A DNA stretch of 64,000 nucleotides from Fictibacillus macauensis ZFHKF-1. GTDB lineage: Bacteria; Bacillota; Bacilli; Bacillales; Fictibacillaceae. The stretch lies in assembly GCF_000269865.1 (NCBI RefSeq), contig NZ_AKKV01000036.1, positions 62,001 to 126,000 on the forward strand, written 5' to 3'. Under the pieces are notes generated by a model. It was not told where the DNA came from, ran no database searches, and saw nothing but the letters and a program-made list of their open reading frames with translations. Position numbers and translations under genes: made by a program. Shown here piece by piece: positions 10,687 through 53,422 of the stretch. The first letter of the stretch is position 1; every line of letters begins with the position of its first letter.

Positions 10687-12594
10687 ATGTGTGGTTTTAT
10701 CGGATTAATGAGTGCACGTCCGCTCAGTAGTGAAGCGGCGGAGGTCCAGCAATTTCAAGATATGACGAACATCATTACGCACCGAGGTCCAGATGATGTT
10801 GGTTATTATTTCGATGAACACGTACGTCTTGGATTTCGTCGTCTCAGCATTATTGATGTAGAGCACGGAAAACAACCACTAAGTTATGAAAATGAACGCT
10901 ATTGGATTACATTTAACGGTGAAGTATATAACTATGTTGAGTTGCGTGAAGAGCTTGAGAAAAAAGGCTACACGTTCCAAACAGAGTCTGATACAGAAGT
11001 AATTCTAGCTCTTTATGCACATAAAGGTGAAAAGGCTGTCAATGATCTCCGTGGAATGTTTGGTTTTCTTATCTGGGATAAACAAGAGGAAGTACTTTTT
11101 GGAGCACGTGACCATTTTGGCATCAAGCCATTTTTCTATTTAGAAGAAGGCGAGATGTTCTATGCAGGTAGTGAAAAGAAAAGCATTCTTCTAGCAGCAG
11201 ATGGCGGCATTTTTAATAAAGAAGCACTACAACATTATTTAACCTATCAATTCGTTCCAGAGCCACACACGTTATCACAAAAAATTAAACGTCTCGAGCC
11301 AGGTCATTGCTTTAAAAAGAAACCAGGTAAACCAATGCACATTCGTAAATATTGGGAACCTAAATTCCGTCCAAAGCATGAGCCAATCGAAAAGCAAATT
11401 AAAACCATTCAAGATACACTACGTGAATCGGTGAAAATGCATATGCGCAGTGATGTACCAGTAGGCGCGTTCCTTTCTGGTGGAATCGATTCTTCTAGTA
11501 TTGTAGCGCTTGCGAAAGAATTTCACCCGAATTTAAAAACATTCACCGTCGGATTCGAACGTGAAGGCTTCAGTGAAATTGACGTTGCAAAAAATACTGC
11601 AAAAGAACTTGGTGTGGAAAACATTCACTATGTGGTGACACCAGAAGAATTTTTGCAAGAACTACCTAAAATCATTTGGCACATGGATGAGCCTGTTGCA
11701 GATCCAGCAGCCGTTCCACTTTACTTCGTTGCTCGTGAAGCGCGCAAGCATGTAACGGTTGTCTTGTCTGGTGAAGGTGCGGACGAGTTGTTTGGTGGCT
11801 ATAACATTTATCGTGAGCCACATTCGCTTCGTTTCTTTAATAACCTACCAGATCCATTGCTATCTGCGATTGCAAAAGTGGCGTCTGTCCTACCGGAATC
11901 CATGAAAGGTAAAAGCTTCTTAGAGCGCGGTACGACAGCTTTAGAACAGCGCTACATTGGTAACGCGAAAATGTTTACAGAAGAAGAGAAGAAGCAGCTT
12001 TTAACAAAATATCATTCTGTATGGGATTATACGACGATTACAAAACCAATTTACGAGCAGGCAGCTTTCTATCATGATGTGCATAAAATGCAATACGTAG
12101 ATATGCATACATGGCTTCGTGGCGATATTCTTGTAAAAGCAGATAAAATGACGATGGCTAACTCTCTTGAGCTACGTGTACCGTTCCTAGATAAAGAAGT
12201 CTTTGAAGTGGCGTCACAACTTGATCCATCCGTAACCGTTTGTAACCAAACAACGAAGTATACGCTTCGTAAAGCGATGGAAGGCGTTGTTCCAGATTCC
12301 GTTCTTCACCGCAAAAAGCTTGGATTCCCAGTGCCGATTCGTCACTGGCTAAGAAACGAATGGTATGACTGGGCACAGCAATTAATTAAAGAAAGCGCTA
12401 CTGACTACTTATTCGATAAAAACTATTTATATCAATTGTTAGAAGATCATAAAGGCGAGAAAAAAGACAACAGCCGTAAGCTTTGGACCGTTCTTTGCTT
12501 CATGATCTGGCACCAAATCTATATCGAGGGAAAGTACAATTTCAGTGAAAATCTTGAAGCCGAGCGTCAAAAAGAGCTTAGCCTTGTAATGTAA
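10687..12594 (+). CDS. asnB: asparagine synthase (glutamine-hydrolysing)
   Basis: A 635-residue enzyme close in length to B. subtilis AsnB. Cys2 (MCGFIG) is the glutaminase nucleophile, and the N-terminal class II amidotransferase domain has RRLSIID, NGEVYNY and GPDDVGYY. The synthetase domain has the pyrophosphate-loop SGGIDSS (about residue 263) and LSGEGADELFGGY (about 361). It makes asparagine from aspartate, glutamine and ATP; some Bacillus AsnB-type enzymes instead amidate cell-wall diaminopimelate, so this alternative cannot be excluded. ATG 10687 follows AAAGGAG. It is monocistronic between two strong terminators. The codon use here is clean and host-like. Confidence 0.95.
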   Translation: MCGFIGLMSARPLSSEAAEVQQFQDMTNIITHRGPDDVGYYFDEHVRLGFRRLSIIDVEHGKQPLSYENERYWITFNGEVYNYVELREELEKKGYTFQTESDTEVILALYAHKGEKAVNDLRGMFGFLIWDKQEEVLFGARDHFGIKPFFYLEEGEMFYAGSEKKSILLAADGGIFNKEALQHYLTYQFVPEPHTLSQKIKRLEPGHCFKKKPGKPMHIRKYWEPKFRPKHEPIEKQIKTIQDTLRESVKMHMRSDVPVGAFLSGGIDSSSIVALAKEFHPNLKTFTVGFEREGFSEIDVAKNTAKELGVENIHYVVTPEEFLQELPKIIWHMDEPVADPAAVPLYFVAREARKHVTVVLSGEGADELFGGYNIYREPHSLRFFNNLPDPLLSAIAKVASVLPESMKGKSFLERGTTALEQRYIGNAKMFTEEEKKQLLTKYHSVWDYTTITKPIYEQAAFYHDVHKMQYVDMHTWLRGDILVKADKMTMANSLELRVPFLDKEVFEVASQLDPSVTVCNQTTKYTLRKAMEGVVPDSVLHRKKLGFPVPIRHWLRNEWYDWAQQLIKESATDYLFDKNYLYQLLEDHKGEKKDNSRKLWTVLCFMIWHQIYIEGKYNFSENLEAERQKELSLVM

Positions 12595-12600
12595 AGATGA

Positions 12601-12638
12601 GACGCGAATTAGAGCAATCTAATTCGCGTCTTTTTTTT
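12601..12638 (+). terminator. terminator after asnB
   Basis: Stem GACGCGAATTA (12601-12611) with TAATTCGCGTC (12620-12630), followed by eight T. The first 21-bp repeat array starts immediately behind it. Confidence 0.92.
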
Positions 12639-12639
12639 G

Positions 12640-12989
12640 CGCGCAGGGCGGGTGAAGTGCGGAGGCACGCTTGTTCATGCGCAGGAGTAAGCTCGTTCGC
12701 GCGAGGAGGCAGGTCGTTCGCGCGCAGAGCATGGTCGTTCGCGCGATTCGCGCGCAGAGGCACGTCGTTCGCGCGCAGGGCACGGTCGTTCGCGCGCAGG
12801 GCACGGTCGTTCGCGCGCAGAGGCAGGTCGTTCGCGCGCAGGACACGCTTATTCGCGCGCAAAGGCAGGTCGTTCGCGCGCAGAGGCAGGTCGTTCGCGC
12901 GCAGGGCACGGTCGTTCGCTCGCAGGAGCACCCGATTCAAGCACAGAGGCAGTTTGTTCGCGCGCAAACAGGGTAAAATCACACAAATA
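12640..12989. repeat. 21-bp tandem repeat array 1 (GCGCGC-cored, about 14 units)
   Basis: From 12696 to about 12977 a 21-bp unit repeats with exact period: a 12-base core TTCGCGCGCAGA (or G at positions 11-12) followed by a 9-base spacer such as GGCACGTCG, GGCAGGTCG or GCACGGTCG. One 9-base partial unit (near 12738) interrupts the period, and more degenerate units extend to 12640. The last unit changes to TTCGCGCGCAAAC and runs into AAATCACAC. Because 21 is a multiple of three and the unit lacks stops, several frames on both strands stay open, but none has a ribosome binding site. The 600-base interval 12639-13237 holds nothing else recognisable. Confidence 0.93.
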
Positions 12990-13237
12990 TGAAAGAATTA
13001 CGCATAAAATGAGAGAAATCATGCGAAAATCATGTGAAATCTCCGATATTTTGAGTAAAATCAGCGTTACAATTACAGCATGGTTGTTAAAGGAATAAGA
13101 AGTGAACCGATAGAAGTAGTATAGACAATCATCATGGAGCGTGTTTTTTGGTATAGCAACTGTTAAATAGTAAAAAAGTATATACTTGTAAAAATCTGAT
13201 ATAATGAAATTCTGTGATTGAAAGGGGAGCAATGATA

Positions 13238-13936
13238 ATGAGGTTAGGAAAGAAACTACTGATGACCTTAGGGGTTAGTGCCGTGGTAATAGGTACTTTA
13301 AGTGCTTGTAATGAAGAAGACAAAGCTTATGCACAAGTCAAAATGAATGCGCCGCTGATTGAGCAGAATCCACAACTGCCACGCGGCTGTGAAGTAACAA
13401 CACTAGCAATGATGCTACAACATGCAACAGGGAAAAAAATCTCTAAAATGACGTTAGCAAGCCAAGTGAAAAAGGATCCGACGCCGTACCGTGAGCGCAA
13501 TGGGCGCATTTATTTCGGAAACCCGAATACGGGCTTTGTCGGCAGCATGTACACGTTTAATAAGCCTGGCTTTGCAGTCTATCACGGCCCTATCGCACAA
13601 CTTGCGCGCCGTTATATGCCAGGCAAAATTGTGGACTTGTCAGGCGGTAGCTTTAAAAATATTTATACATATTTAAAAAAGGGACGTTCAGTATGGGTGA
13701 TTAACAATACGTGGTTTGACACTGTCCCGTCGCGCTATTGGCAAACATGGCACACACCAACAGGCACAATTCGTATTACAAAAAAAGAGCATAGCGTCTT
13801 AGTGACCGGCTATGATTCACATTACATTTATTTTAATGATCCTTTAGCTGGCATGAAAAATCGCCGAATTAGCATCGCGAAATTCAAGCGGGGCTGGGAG
13901 CAAATGGGCCGTCAAGCCATTTCGTATACTAAATAA
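13238..13936 (+). CDS. C39-like family peptidase, lipoprotein
   Basis: A 232-residue exported protein with lipobox LSAC, so probably membrane-anchored outside. The peptidase_C39_2-type (papain-like) domain shows the nucleophile in PRGCEVTTLAMML, the His in KEHSVLVTGYD and YFNDPLAG as the third site. These proteins are common in bacilli; most are uncharacterised cysteine peptidases or peptidase-fold proteins. The reading frame is open to GTG 13214, and ATG 13232 is also in frame, but GGGGAG is best spaced for ATG 13238. The gene stands alone between two 21-bp repeat arrays. All expected catalytic residues appear present. Confidence 0.82.
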   Translation: MRLGKKLLMTLGVSAVVIGTLSACNEEDKAYAQVKMNAPLIEQNPQLPRGCEVTTLAMMLQHATGKKISKMTLASQVKKDPTPYRERNGRIYFGNPNTGFVGSMYTFNKPGFAVYHGPIAQLARRYMPGKIVDLSGGSFKNIYTYLKKGRSVWVINNTWFDTVPSRYWQTWHTPTGTIRITKKEHSVLVTGYDSHYIYFNDPLAGMKNRRISIAKFKRGWEQMGRQAISYTK

Positions 13937-13969
13937 TAATAAAGGAATTTCTTCAAAACTTTCGCACAG

Positions 13970-14221
13970 TGATTCGTTAAGTGCAAAGTTCTTATTTCGC
14001 TCTGAAATAGGCTTTCGCGCGCAGAGGCACGTCGTTCACGCGCAGAGGCACGTCGTTCGCGCGCAGAGGCACGTCGTTCGCGCGCAGAGGCACGTCGTTC
14101 GCGCGCAGAGGCACGTCGTTTGCGCGCAGAGGCACGTCGTTCGCGCGCAAGGGCACCCGATTCGCGCGCAGAGACACGTAATTGACTCGCAAATGCTTTT
14201 TTTTCGGGTAAAAGCAGGCAT
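13970..14221. repeat. 21-bp tandem repeat array 2 (eight contiguous units) with leader
   Basis: Eight units of exactly 21 bp lie at 14014, 14035, 14056, 14077, 14098, 14119, 14140 and 14161. Six are nearly identical (core TTCGCGCGCAGA, spacer GGCACGTCG), with one or two base changes at units 2 and 6; the last two are degenerate, and the array ends in a CGCAAATGC variant. A leader with TAAGTGCAAAGTTCTTATTTC and CTGAAATAGGC (13979-14013, the two parts separated by GCT) precedes it and returns in diverged form at 14266-14306. The open frames through it lack ribosome binding sites and are not taken as genes. Confidence 0.95.
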
Positions 14222-14662: not shown

Positions 14663-14752
14663 TCACTCATCATAAAAGGAGCACACACGACATGGAATGA
14701 TAAGTACCACATCGTATTCGCACCAAAATATAGATTTAGAAAATATCATTTT
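14663..14752 (+). pseudogene. IS200/IS605-family TnpA transposase, N-terminal remnant
   Basis: An in-frame stretch reads GAHTTWNDKYHIVFAPKYR, the hallmark N-terminus of IS200-type Y1 transposases (HxxWNxKYHIVFAPKYRR). After about 30 codons the match ends and the DNA becomes the 3' end of the LysR gene read from the other strand. The HUH motif and catalytic Tyr are absent. It is a truncated relic whose breakpoint coincides with the LysR terminus near 14750. Confidence 0.75.
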
Positions 14753-15642
14753 TTTGATAACGAAAGAGCATGCTGCAGAACGAATGTCTCAAAAGCTTTT
14801 ATGAGATTTTGCTTCGGATGCATCTTATCACTATATAGTGCAAAGAGCAGTTCACGTGGCTCATAGTCAACAAGTGGAATAGCTACAATGGAACCTTGAG
14901 CAAGATAGGGATCATTCACGAGCATAACATCCGTAAAGAAGCTAATTGCCACATTCGCAGCAACAAGGCGTTTAATTGTCTCAGATTGGTTTGTCGTACA
15001 TAGCACGGTAAATGGTCCATTCGTGTCGAGTCGCCATTGTGTAAGGTAAGAGAGCCAGCGGTCACCGTGAAACAGTGCGATTGTTTCATGAGCAAGCTCT
15101 TTAACCGTTACTTCACGCATGTTTGCTAACGGAGATTGCGCAGAAACAATCACTTGCATTGTACCGGTATGGAGGGGGAGTTGTTGCACCGTTGACGAAT
15201 GTATGGCAACAGCTAAACCGACGTCGATGGTTCGCTCCTCAATGCCGTTAATAATTTCATCGCTCCCAAGCTCTTGAAGCTGAAGAACGACGTTTGGGTA
15301 ATGTTGTTTAAAATGAGGAAGAATTGATGGTAAAAGAGATGTGAATAGGCTAGGGATTGCGGCAATTCTCAAGGTTCCTTCAACACGTTCTTGTTTTGCT
15401 TCCGCTTGAATATCCTGAATCGATTGAAGAATGACGTTCGCTTTGGCGATAATACGTTCTCCTTCACTAGTAGGGATCGTTCCTAGGCGTGAGCGCTTGA
15501 ACAGAGGAAGTTCTAGTTCTTTTTCTAGTGAGAGAATAGCTTGGCTAATTGCAGCTTGTGAGACGTGTAAGTTGACTGCTGCTTGTGAAATAGAGCGTGT
15601 ATACGAAATTTCAACAAGATAGTGCATTTGTTCAAGATTCAT
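14746..15642 (-). CDS. LysR-family transcriptional regulator
   Basis: A 298-residue LysR protein. The N-terminal helix-turn-helix reads SISQAAVNLHVSQAAISQAILSLEKEL (about residues 15-41), followed by a co-inducer domain with RIAAIPSLFTSLLP at about residue 92. ATG 15642 is ten bases from AAAGGAG; upstream in-frame ATGs are too near or before that site. It is divergent from an EamA transporter and a two-domain multicopper oxidase, the likely targets. The 3' end is odd: the stop codon lies inside sequence that also matches an IS200 relic, so the last residues (LSLSKK) may have been supplied or altered by the insertion. Overall length remains normal. Confidence 0.9.
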   Translation of the reverse strand: MNLEQMHYLVEISYTRSISQAAVNLHVSQAAISQAILSLEKELELPLFKRSRLGTIPTSEGERIIAKANVILQSIQDIQAEAKQERVEGTLRIAAIPSLFTSLLPSILPHFKQHYPNVVLQLQELGSDEIINGIEERTIDVGLAVAIHSSTVQQLPLHTGTMQVIVSAQSPLANMREVTVKELAHETIALFHGDRWLSYLTQWRLDTNGPFTVLCTTNQSETIKRLVAANVAISFFTDVMLVNDPYLAQGSIVAIPLVDYEPRELLFALYSDKMHPKQNLIKAFETFVLQHALSLSKK

Positions 15643-15746
15643 AAGGATCATGCTCCTTTCCATAACTTTCACTTATATTACTATAAAAAATACATATTTT
15701 ACATCATTCTATTGTATGGATTATCGTTACAGTACGAGGTGATGAG

Positions 15747-31314: not shown

Positions 31315-31432
31315 AGTGCCTAGGTTAAGTAACATTGTGTTTTGTGTTGAAGTAAGATAAGCGTAGTGTAGAACAAGTACTTGCGTGCAGATCTTCCTCT
31401 TAAATCGTTGCAGCACCCGAAATACCTAAATT

Positions 31433-31682
31433 ACATGCAAAAGTCATCTATCGAGGTAGCAATCTTATTATTACGTATAAATTTCATCAAAATAAGAGCA
31501 AATGACTATTTTAAATTTTTCGTAAACGTTTCCTAACTAAGCACAAAATTTTGATTCGCGCGCAGAAGCCACTGAATCGCGCGCAGAGCCCTTCGATTCG
31601 CGCGCAGAAGCCACTGAATCGCGCGCAGAGCCCCTCGATTCGCGCGCAGAGCCCCTCGATTCGCGCGCAAACCCCGAAATCG
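31433..31682. repeat. repeat module 3: leader plus 21-bp array (about six units)
   Basis: A leader of about 120 bases (31433-31552), with ATTACGTATAAATTTCATC, AAAATAAGAGCAAATGA and a closing AAAATTTTGATTC, precedes units at 31553, 31574, 31595, 31616, 31637 and 31658. The period is again 21 bp and the core TTCGCGCGCAGA or ATCGCGCGCAGA, but spacers differ from arrays 1 and 2 (AGCCACTGA, GCCCCTCGA). The last unit has the GCGCAAAC variant and ends in GAAATCGCAC. The units alternate between two spacer types at first. Confidence 0.92.
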
Positions 31683-31870
31683 CACCTGCAAAAGTCATTA
31701 AATAAGGAAGTAATCTTCTAATTACGTATAAATTTCATCAAAATAAGAGCAAATGATTATATTTTTACGCAAAAGTCTCTTAACTAGGCATGAAATTTTG
31801 ATTCACGCGCAGTCCCCTGATTCACGCGCAGTCTTCCTAATCCACGCGCATCCTCCCCGATATCGCACAC
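31683..31870. repeat. repeat module 4: second leader copy plus degenerate array
   Basis: The leader is repeated at about 31683-31802 with few changes (TGCAAAAGTCAT, ATTACGTATAAATTTCATC, AAAATAAGAGCAAATGATTAT, TTAACTAGGCATGAAATTTTG). Three cores, ACGCGC at 31805, 31824 and 31844, have spacing of 19-20 bp, and the module closes with GATATCGCACAC. It directly adjoins module 3 as a tandem duplicate. The 660 bases between the terminator at 31314 and the LysR gene hold only these two modules. Confidence 0.88.
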
Positions 31871-52944: not shown

Positions 52945-53070
52945 TTGTTTTGCGGTCAAGTATTCGCGCGCAAACAAAACATATCTCCCTCAGAGCAAGA
53001 GCAAGAGATCCAAAAGAGAGCAAATGAAGCGCTAAACTCGCGAATGCGTCACAAAACAGAGGAAATAGGG
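52945..53070. repeat. single-core relic of the 21-bp repeat element
   Basis: One core, TTCGCGCGCAAAC (52963-52975), identical to the end units of arrays 1 and 3, stands alone here; GAGCAAATGA, part of the module 3/4 leader, occurs at about 53020-53029. The rest is unrecognised A/G-rich sequence with GAGCAAGAGCAAGAG. It looks like a degenerate or minimal member of the same family. Confidence 0.5.
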
Positions 53071-53159: not shown

Positions 53160-53175
53160 TATCATTAAAAAAATT

Positions 53176-53422
53176 AACGTCAATGACGAGAACAGTATGT
53201 TATAAGAGGACTCTAAAGAGAGCTGGAGTAGCTGAGAACCAGTGGGTGTCTATAACAGAAGATCCTCTCGAGAGACGTAATGCTGAACTGCATGATGTAA
53301 GCATTGCCGGGCAATCCGTTATCGTTGTATTTAAACAAGTGTCAGTAGTGGTTTGCTACTGGAACTAGGGTGGTAACGCGTGTATTAACTCGTCCCTACT
53401 ATTATAGGGGGCGAGTTTTTTT
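53176..53422 (+). ncRNA. T-box riboswitch, isoleucine specifier
   Basis: A T-box leader in front of ilvA. Stem I shows the loop-E pair AGTA (53194-53197) and GAA (53258-53260) around helix TGTTATA (53198-53204)/TATAACA (53251-53257); the next bases are G and then ATC (53262-53264), an isoleucine codon in the specifier position. A CAGTAG/CTACTG hairpin (53343-53361) precedes the T-box AGGGTGGTAACGCG (53367-53380), which varies from the usual GGAACCGCG. The terminator stem AACTCGTCCCT/AGGGGGCGAGTT (53388-53417) plus T run is the alternative fold. Uncharged tRNA-Ile should allow readthrough into ilvA. Confidence 0.93.

Follow-up and report, generated by a model that had tools for sequence, protein, structure and literature searches.

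Dispersed non-coding tandem arrays with a constant 11-bp core and a 21-bp step lie behind genes of Fictibacillus macauensis

Main

The genome of Fictibacillus macauensis ZFHKF-1 carries tandem arrays in at least 42 places, spread over many contigs, whose repeat unit is an 11-bp core, TTCGCGCGCAG, joined to a 10-bp free spacer. We tentatively read these arrays as dispersed non-coding satellites at gene 3′ ends that resemble REP/BIME sequences, in which the core is a candidate DNA site read once every two turns of the helix; the REP/BIME-like function is one that we infer from constancy of the core, position and rhythm. Below we describe the arrays, their spread and their gene context, and weigh this reading against a neutral satellite and other explanations.

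Results

Four arrays in the window

The window, the whole 64,000-nt stretch that was analysed, holds four tandem arrays. The original prediction, made from the letters of this stretch, had listed two GC-rich arrays flanking one peptidase gene, and both are present (arrays 1 and 2); arrays 3 and 4 were not in its list. The features are as follows, in window coordinates.

10687–12594, + strand: asnB-like glutamine-hydrolysing asparagine synthase gene, upstream of array 1
12601–12638, + strand: terminator-like hairpin with T-run, behind asnB and abutting array 1 (by eye)
12636–12967, + strand: array 1, 14 near-cores of TTCGCGCGCAG
12968–13060, + strand: AT-rich flank 3′ of array 1, a decayed, A-rich form of the repeat (by eye)
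13214–13936, + strand: Peptidase_C39_2 family gene, between arrays 1 and 2 (listed with a GTG start; translation may begin further inside)
14014–14181, + strand: array 2, eight contiguous units of exactly 21 bp, consensus TTCGCGCGCAGAGGCACGTCG
14746–15672, − strand: LysR-family regulator gene, convergent to array 2
31430–31554, + strand: AT-rich linker before array 3, copy 1 of a duplicated linker (direct sequence reading)
31555–31670, + strand: array 3, six units at a 21-bp step with alternating A/B spacers
31671–31801, + strand: AT-rich linker between arrays 3 and 4, copy 2 of the duplicated linker, included in the periodicity test
31802–31850, + strand: array 4, about three degenerate units with core TTCACGCGCAG at a step of about 20 bp

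Array 1 starts inside the T-run of the preceding terminator-like hairpin, and array 2 lies behind the Peptidase_C39_2 gene. A strict 21-bp step had been claimed for both; it holds for the eight units of array 2 but not for array 1, because its steps run 38, 22, 21 and 30 bp, then 21 bp eight times, then 42 bp. Elsewhere in the window, a T-box leader (53174–53400; RF00230, 125.6 bits) is preceded at a distance of about 200 bases by one isolated near-core, TTCGCGCGCAA, at 52963. By eye, we take the short reading frame at 14690–14750 to resemble the start of an IS200-type transposase; the 87-amino-acid ORF at this place matched no Pfam family by hmmscan.

Arrays and a carrier element throughout the genome

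Searched through the whole 3.74-Mb genome, as had been proposed from the window, the core gave 316 exact adjacent pairs at 21-bp spacing (163 forward, 153 reverse), far above chance, with none for the reversed-pattern control; exact four-core runs numbered 130. We fetched 34 loci, of which 33 gave a cluster under a rule of three near-cores (L044 gave none), and these with the window amount to 37 clusters (48 blocks); a carrier element led to five more arrays, and for the genome as a whole both numbers are lower bounds. Array lengths are probably underestimated, because four contigs (C2, C4, C7 and C19) stop no more than 60 bases from an array, and for the same reason the arrays are an assembly hazard and possible strain markers.

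Other repeats were seen in passing. One of the spaced stretches of the genome contains a core array of 17 copies (L207, 11531–11886), whose frame stays open and which the length rule hence labelled an ORF; a 39-bp tandem repeat of 9.6 copies (L144, 3562–3934) lies near another asparagine-synthase homologue of this genome; and, in array orientation, the first 115 bases of L072, at the end of contig C37, hold a different, longer GC-rich tandem repeat immediately before a 21-bp array.

Many arrays sit inside the carrier, a dispersed intergenic element that runs from a left module, which contains a strong terminator-like hairpin, through an array and an AT-rich linker, often to a second array, and on to a right end. 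Its left module occurs in at least 25 places of the genome (25 candidates scored of 86), is absent from the window’s arrays and was found in none of 33 family relatives. Seven carrier copies lie outside our array list, five with several units and two (L100 and L105) without a tandem repeat by TRF. Inverted carrier ends matched at 14, 16, 15 and 15 of 18 positions in L054, L061, L065 and L068, above these loci’s own shuffled maxima of 12–13; the remaining loci were within or near the control range, and shuffles reached up to 15 in two other loci.

The core is constant and the spacer is free

Among the 343 steps in the sampled loci and the window, 315 were of 21 bp; the others were 20 (n = 12), 19 (4), 22 (3), 40 (2) and 42 bp (2), with single steps of 30, 37, 38, 59 and 121 bp. 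In the 315 units preceding a 21-bp step, each core position was conserved at 94–100%, and the spacers took 177 distinct forms, with column biases towards a purine at the first position, pyrimidines at 18–19 and a purine at the last. The spacer had been given as 9 bases; it is 10 bp long, and the invariant part covers 11 bp. Spacer identity was 0.43 for neighbouring units and 0.40 for units of different arrays but rose to 0.73 for units two apart, which indicates that the arrays often evolve by 42-bp A/B dimers.

In 202 pairs of units two apart, differences per site were 0.032 for the core as against 0.270 for the spacer. Because the original arrays had been found by means of the core, we reran the core/spacer test on arrays found through the carrier left module, and in all five a conserved ten-base arc stood against a variable remainder (p ≤ 0.011 in four, 0.067 in one; combined p = 2 × 10−7). 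The prediction of a strongly conserved core beside a spacer drifting in sequence is therefore upheld, also in arrays found without the core.

The arrays lie behind genes

With genes called by ORF length only, the 31 clusters with both neighbours (6 of the 37, at contig ends, lack one and are omitted) were convergent in 18 cases, co-directional in 13 and divergent in none. Ordinary gaps of at least 150 bp in the sampled DNA of this genome, including the window, were convergent in 17, co-directional in 58 and divergent in 25 of 100 (Fisher test, p = 3 × 10−5 for convergent and 0.001 for divergent). The core lay in the gene sense in 11 of the 13 co-directional clusters (p = 0.022). In the rest of the sampled DNA, arrays with a period of 19–22 and 2.5 or more copies tend toward the same context, but they are few (5 convergent, 7 co-directional and 1 divergent; n = 13, including one from another class), set against 82 convergent, 285 co-directional and 106 divergent among 473 gaps in relatives.

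We take a constant core to suggest that something reads it, a location behind gene ends to suggest a task behind transcription units, and a two-turn rhythm to point to the level of DNA rather than RNA. Each unit is roughly one helical turn of constant 11-bp core and another of variable spacer, and the arrays may lengthen and shorten through slippage or unequal recombination. The core could be retained as a putative site for a chromosome-organising or supercoil-managing factor, which would act behind transcribed genes, in the manner proposed for enterobacterial BIME/REP clusters.

Spacer length and a neutral satellite

That the spacing is constant was rejected as a proof of phasing. By an approximate calculation, which takes indels over each 21-bp step but substitutions from the spacers alone, the indel:substitution ratio was 0.042 when units two apart were compared; 11 aligned flanking linkers gave 0.044. 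The ratio between neighbouring units, whose spacer differences are near-saturated (0.57 per site), was 0.020, and it is this comparison that leans towards the fixed spacer length that had been claimed, which the comparison two units apart does not bear out.

These ratios bear on a neutral, self-expanding satellite, which we consider nearly as likely as the REP/BIME-like reading. Slippage or recombination would make the arrays, which would be tolerated only behind gene ends; the step would be a mutational preference, for example if duplications arose more readily at full turns of the helix, and the core would be read by nothing. Agreeing with this are the match between spacers two units apart and flanks, the degradation of array ends, the congeners without arrays, the two carrier copies without a tandem repeat, the same step in unrelated sequences of relatives, and a transition:transversion ratio in spacers (140:33) that resembles ordinary mutation. 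Against it, the core changes about eightfold less than the spacer, in arrays found without the core as well. A neutral satellite that likes whole turns accounts equally well for the step and the length data, but not for the core.

A 20–21-bp rhythm in flanks and in relatives

At their ends the arrays pass into AT-rich DNA that retains a 20–21-bp rhythm. From 115-bp stretches behind arrays, 46 of them full-length, dropping cores and near-duplicates left 19 (the window flank at 12968–13060 lies within one), which are degenerate relatives of each other and so not fully independent. Autocorrelation in these core-free flanks peaked at lags 11, 20–22, 31 and 40–42, and dipped at 15 and 26 (z = 4.8, 6.3, 5.3 and 6.5 at lags 11, 20, 21 and 41, and −7.2 at lag 26); 79 control intergenic stretches stayed at |z| ≤ 3.2 at every lag and at 1.9 at lag 21. 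A looser rule that kept 29 stretches left the picture unchanged. By eye, the flanks are mostly degenerate A-rich versions of the repeat, and a few continue into neighbouring sequence.

A preference for the same step appeared in relatives. Stretches placed regardless of repeats covered 400 kb of congeners, 400 kb of family relatives and core-hit genomes, and 654 kb (35 of 40 stretches) of other families of the order; we counted tandem repeats of period 12–100 and at least 2.5 copies, a copy threshold set after a first view of the period data. Intergenic repeats had a period of 20 or 21 in 12 of 20 cases, and in 8 of 14 when genomes picked for core arrays were left aside (binomial p = 5 × 10−6 and 3 × 10−4, against an assumed chance of 0.15); at any copy number and a period of at least 12, the count was 20 of 48. 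Repeats in ORFs had this period in 2 of 14 cases and multiples of three in 12 of 14, a difference from intergenic repeats of p = 0.013 for the 12 of 20 and 0.046 for the 8 of 14. Of the eight, three were among 5 repeats of congeners, four among 4 of other family members and one among 5 of the other families of the order, and the preference may therefore be strongest near this family. One qualifying intergenic repeat, of period 21, was found in 248 kb of other classes, too few to judge, and one, of period 13, in 300 kb of spaced DNA from the F. macauensis genome; an E. coli control had no intergenic tandem repeat in 100 kb and is uninformative.

By eye, the relatives’ 20–21-bp repeats are unrelated to one another and to the core. 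A division into a conserved and a variable half was individually significant in 2 of 12 of their arrays (combined p = 0.007), three of the 12 (L089, L090 and L117) having been found through a core pattern. Strong intergenic 20–21-bp arrays of unrelated sequence were seen in other genera of the order (L192, L188, L180 and L216). A step common to unrelated intergenic repeats hints at a shared physical cause. Helical phasing, as originally proposed, is favoured by the core-free flanks, which keep the 10.5/20–21-bp rhythm, and by the relatives’ unrelated repeats; it is not exact in general, for a similar array in another genus steps by 20 bp and genome G070 mixes 18 and 21 bp.

A wider reading, which we regard as rather unlikely, is that intergenic DNA behind genes of this order is built on a two-turn (20–21-bp) rhythm whatever its sequence. 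Arrays would then arise and persist mainly at whole turns, through a nucleoid or supercoiling machine that reads or creates one species-specific motif per two turns.

The core in other genomes

The exact 21-bp core pair was found in none of 59 other genomes, a set that included six congeners, and a looser three-core pattern in none of 33 family relatives; the search of related genomes that had been suggested gave nothing in these congeners and family relatives. For the F. macauensis genome itself the three-core pattern is uninformative (345/345 on the two strands, control 360/360), because the cores are palindromic. Across the order, a search fixed to the 21-bp step and tolerating three mismatches matched 4 of 396 other genomes, against one control match; free spacing gave 2 of 248 against no control, one stepping mostly by 21 bp and one by 20 bp; and a third form of the core gave 4 of 396 against two controls, one of the four being a non-tandem match inside a gene. 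This modest excess over the reversed control hints that the core may recur in other families. Phylum-wide, the core was found in none of 298 other genomes; for the same class and phylum outside the order, the count is none in 295. A scan of contig records, from which the species itself was perhaps left out, gave single matches in four records of unrelated taxa.

The GCGCGC palindrome, present in the F. macauensis core, is kept in similar arrays of genomes G064, G122 and G150 and not in that of G190; the third core form required a non-palindromic pattern and was not counted for palindrome conservation. The one close AsnB homologue (72% identity, congener G002) was considered as a place for the same array, and the DNA behind its gene lacks it. 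In front of that gene is a 21-bp array of another kind, whose core had no match in seven genomes of the genus.

RNA, a copying enzyme and coding

The arrays might be transcribed as 3′ UTRs or small RNAs, their cores forming serial hairpins that protect or sequester something. The sense orientation of the core behind upstream genes would suit such a role, as would a mean folding z of −1.6 over 36 arrays, but the antisense strand folds as well (−2.2); folding is mildly better than in shuffles on both strands, and the folded RNA originally offered as an alternative is not well supported. By eye, many arrays lie behind terminator-like hairpins, and the self-pairing core is not kept in the G190 array. 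Rfam 15 gave nothing over its gathering score at the window arrays or at 15 array loci, and a known RNA family there was rejected; a permissive run returned weak sub-threshold matches alone. We regard an RNA-level role as improbable.

We think it very unlikely that a dedicated enzyme copies or inserts the units in the manner of REP/RAYT or CRISPR systems, although short repeats with variable spacers and the imperfect inverted carrier ends of a few loci would be in keeping with one. No intact RAYT-type gene was found in the genome, and a RAYT link was rejected, the only Y1 transposase (PF01797) matches being two, each interrupted by one in-frame stop:

G000:C27:104654-105010 (L134): Y1 transposase match with one in-frame stop
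C30:65589-65765 (L135): Y1 transposase match with one in-frame stop

Spacers of 10 bp that recur as A/B dimers are, for their part, unlike acquired CRISPR spacers.

A heptapeptide-repeat protein, for which 21 bp would be seven codons and which the long chance ORFs that GC-rich units leave in several frames might suggest, is hardly credible, for the 315 units have stops in all six frames (45, 7 and 4 on the plus strand; 14, 3 and 11 on the minus), steps of 19, 20 and 22 bp break the frame, and relatives use period 20 besides 21. On the grounds of these stops and frame-breaking steps the arrays are non-coding, as had been predicted.

Discussion

If the 20–21-bp step holds in a full census, it becomes testable whether bacterial chromosomes use helically phased DNA at gene ends or whether tandem duplication has a preference of its own for full turns. 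Each outcome would inform how nucleoid structure and repeats shape one another. Our literature search, whose coverage left out most subscription papers, found no description of such arrays.

Several known systems invite comparison. In the Beggiatoaceae (PMC4679880), TAACTGA direct repeats are abundant between genes, sometimes interrupted and sporadic across taxa, and have been proposed as protein-binding sites; these are spacerless heptamers mostly just upstream of start codons, whereas the arrays here are built of 21-bp units behind genes. A-tract periodicity and curved DNA in prokaryotes, with a 10–11-bp phasing linked to nucleoid proteins (PMC3940949), share their rhythm with the AT-rich flanks here, but the arrays themselves are GC-rich and without A-tracts.

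Bacterial satellites, as surveyed by Subirana and Messeguer (2019, PMC6749651), are tandem repeats of 10–200 nt in at least four copies, and certain families that do not code for protein are dispersed within a single genome. In the accessible part of that survey, dispersed non-coding families with repeats above 30 nt are rare, just Leptospira interrogans and Methanocella conradii being named; short-repeat families exist, such as one of 14 nt in Chloroflexus aurantiacus, and short satellite families are traced to microsatellites of 6–8 nt; that part mentions neither a preferred 20–21-bp period nor a constant core with a free spacer. The arrays described here have at least four tandem units within 10–200 nt, lie in several unlinked places and are non-coding, as satellites are. 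Several hundred copies of an 11-bp core in 21-bp steps are a poor fit to either surveyed class.

CRISPR arrays have repeats of 23–50 bp, unique spacers of 26–72 bp and cas genes, in contrast to an 11-bp core with recurring 10-bp spacers. MITEs are multicopy elements with inverted ends; the carrier is multicopy too, with candidate imperfect inverted ends in a few copies, and differs from them in its long internal satellite. REP/BIME sequences are short GC-rich repeats clustered behind genes, with none between divergent genes and many copies per genome. The arrays here differ from these in being direct 21-bp tandem units and in having a carrier that was not found in the family relatives. They resemble REP/BIME sequences in being GC-rich and of many copies, and in their placement, which is intergenic, clustered behind genes and never between divergent ones.
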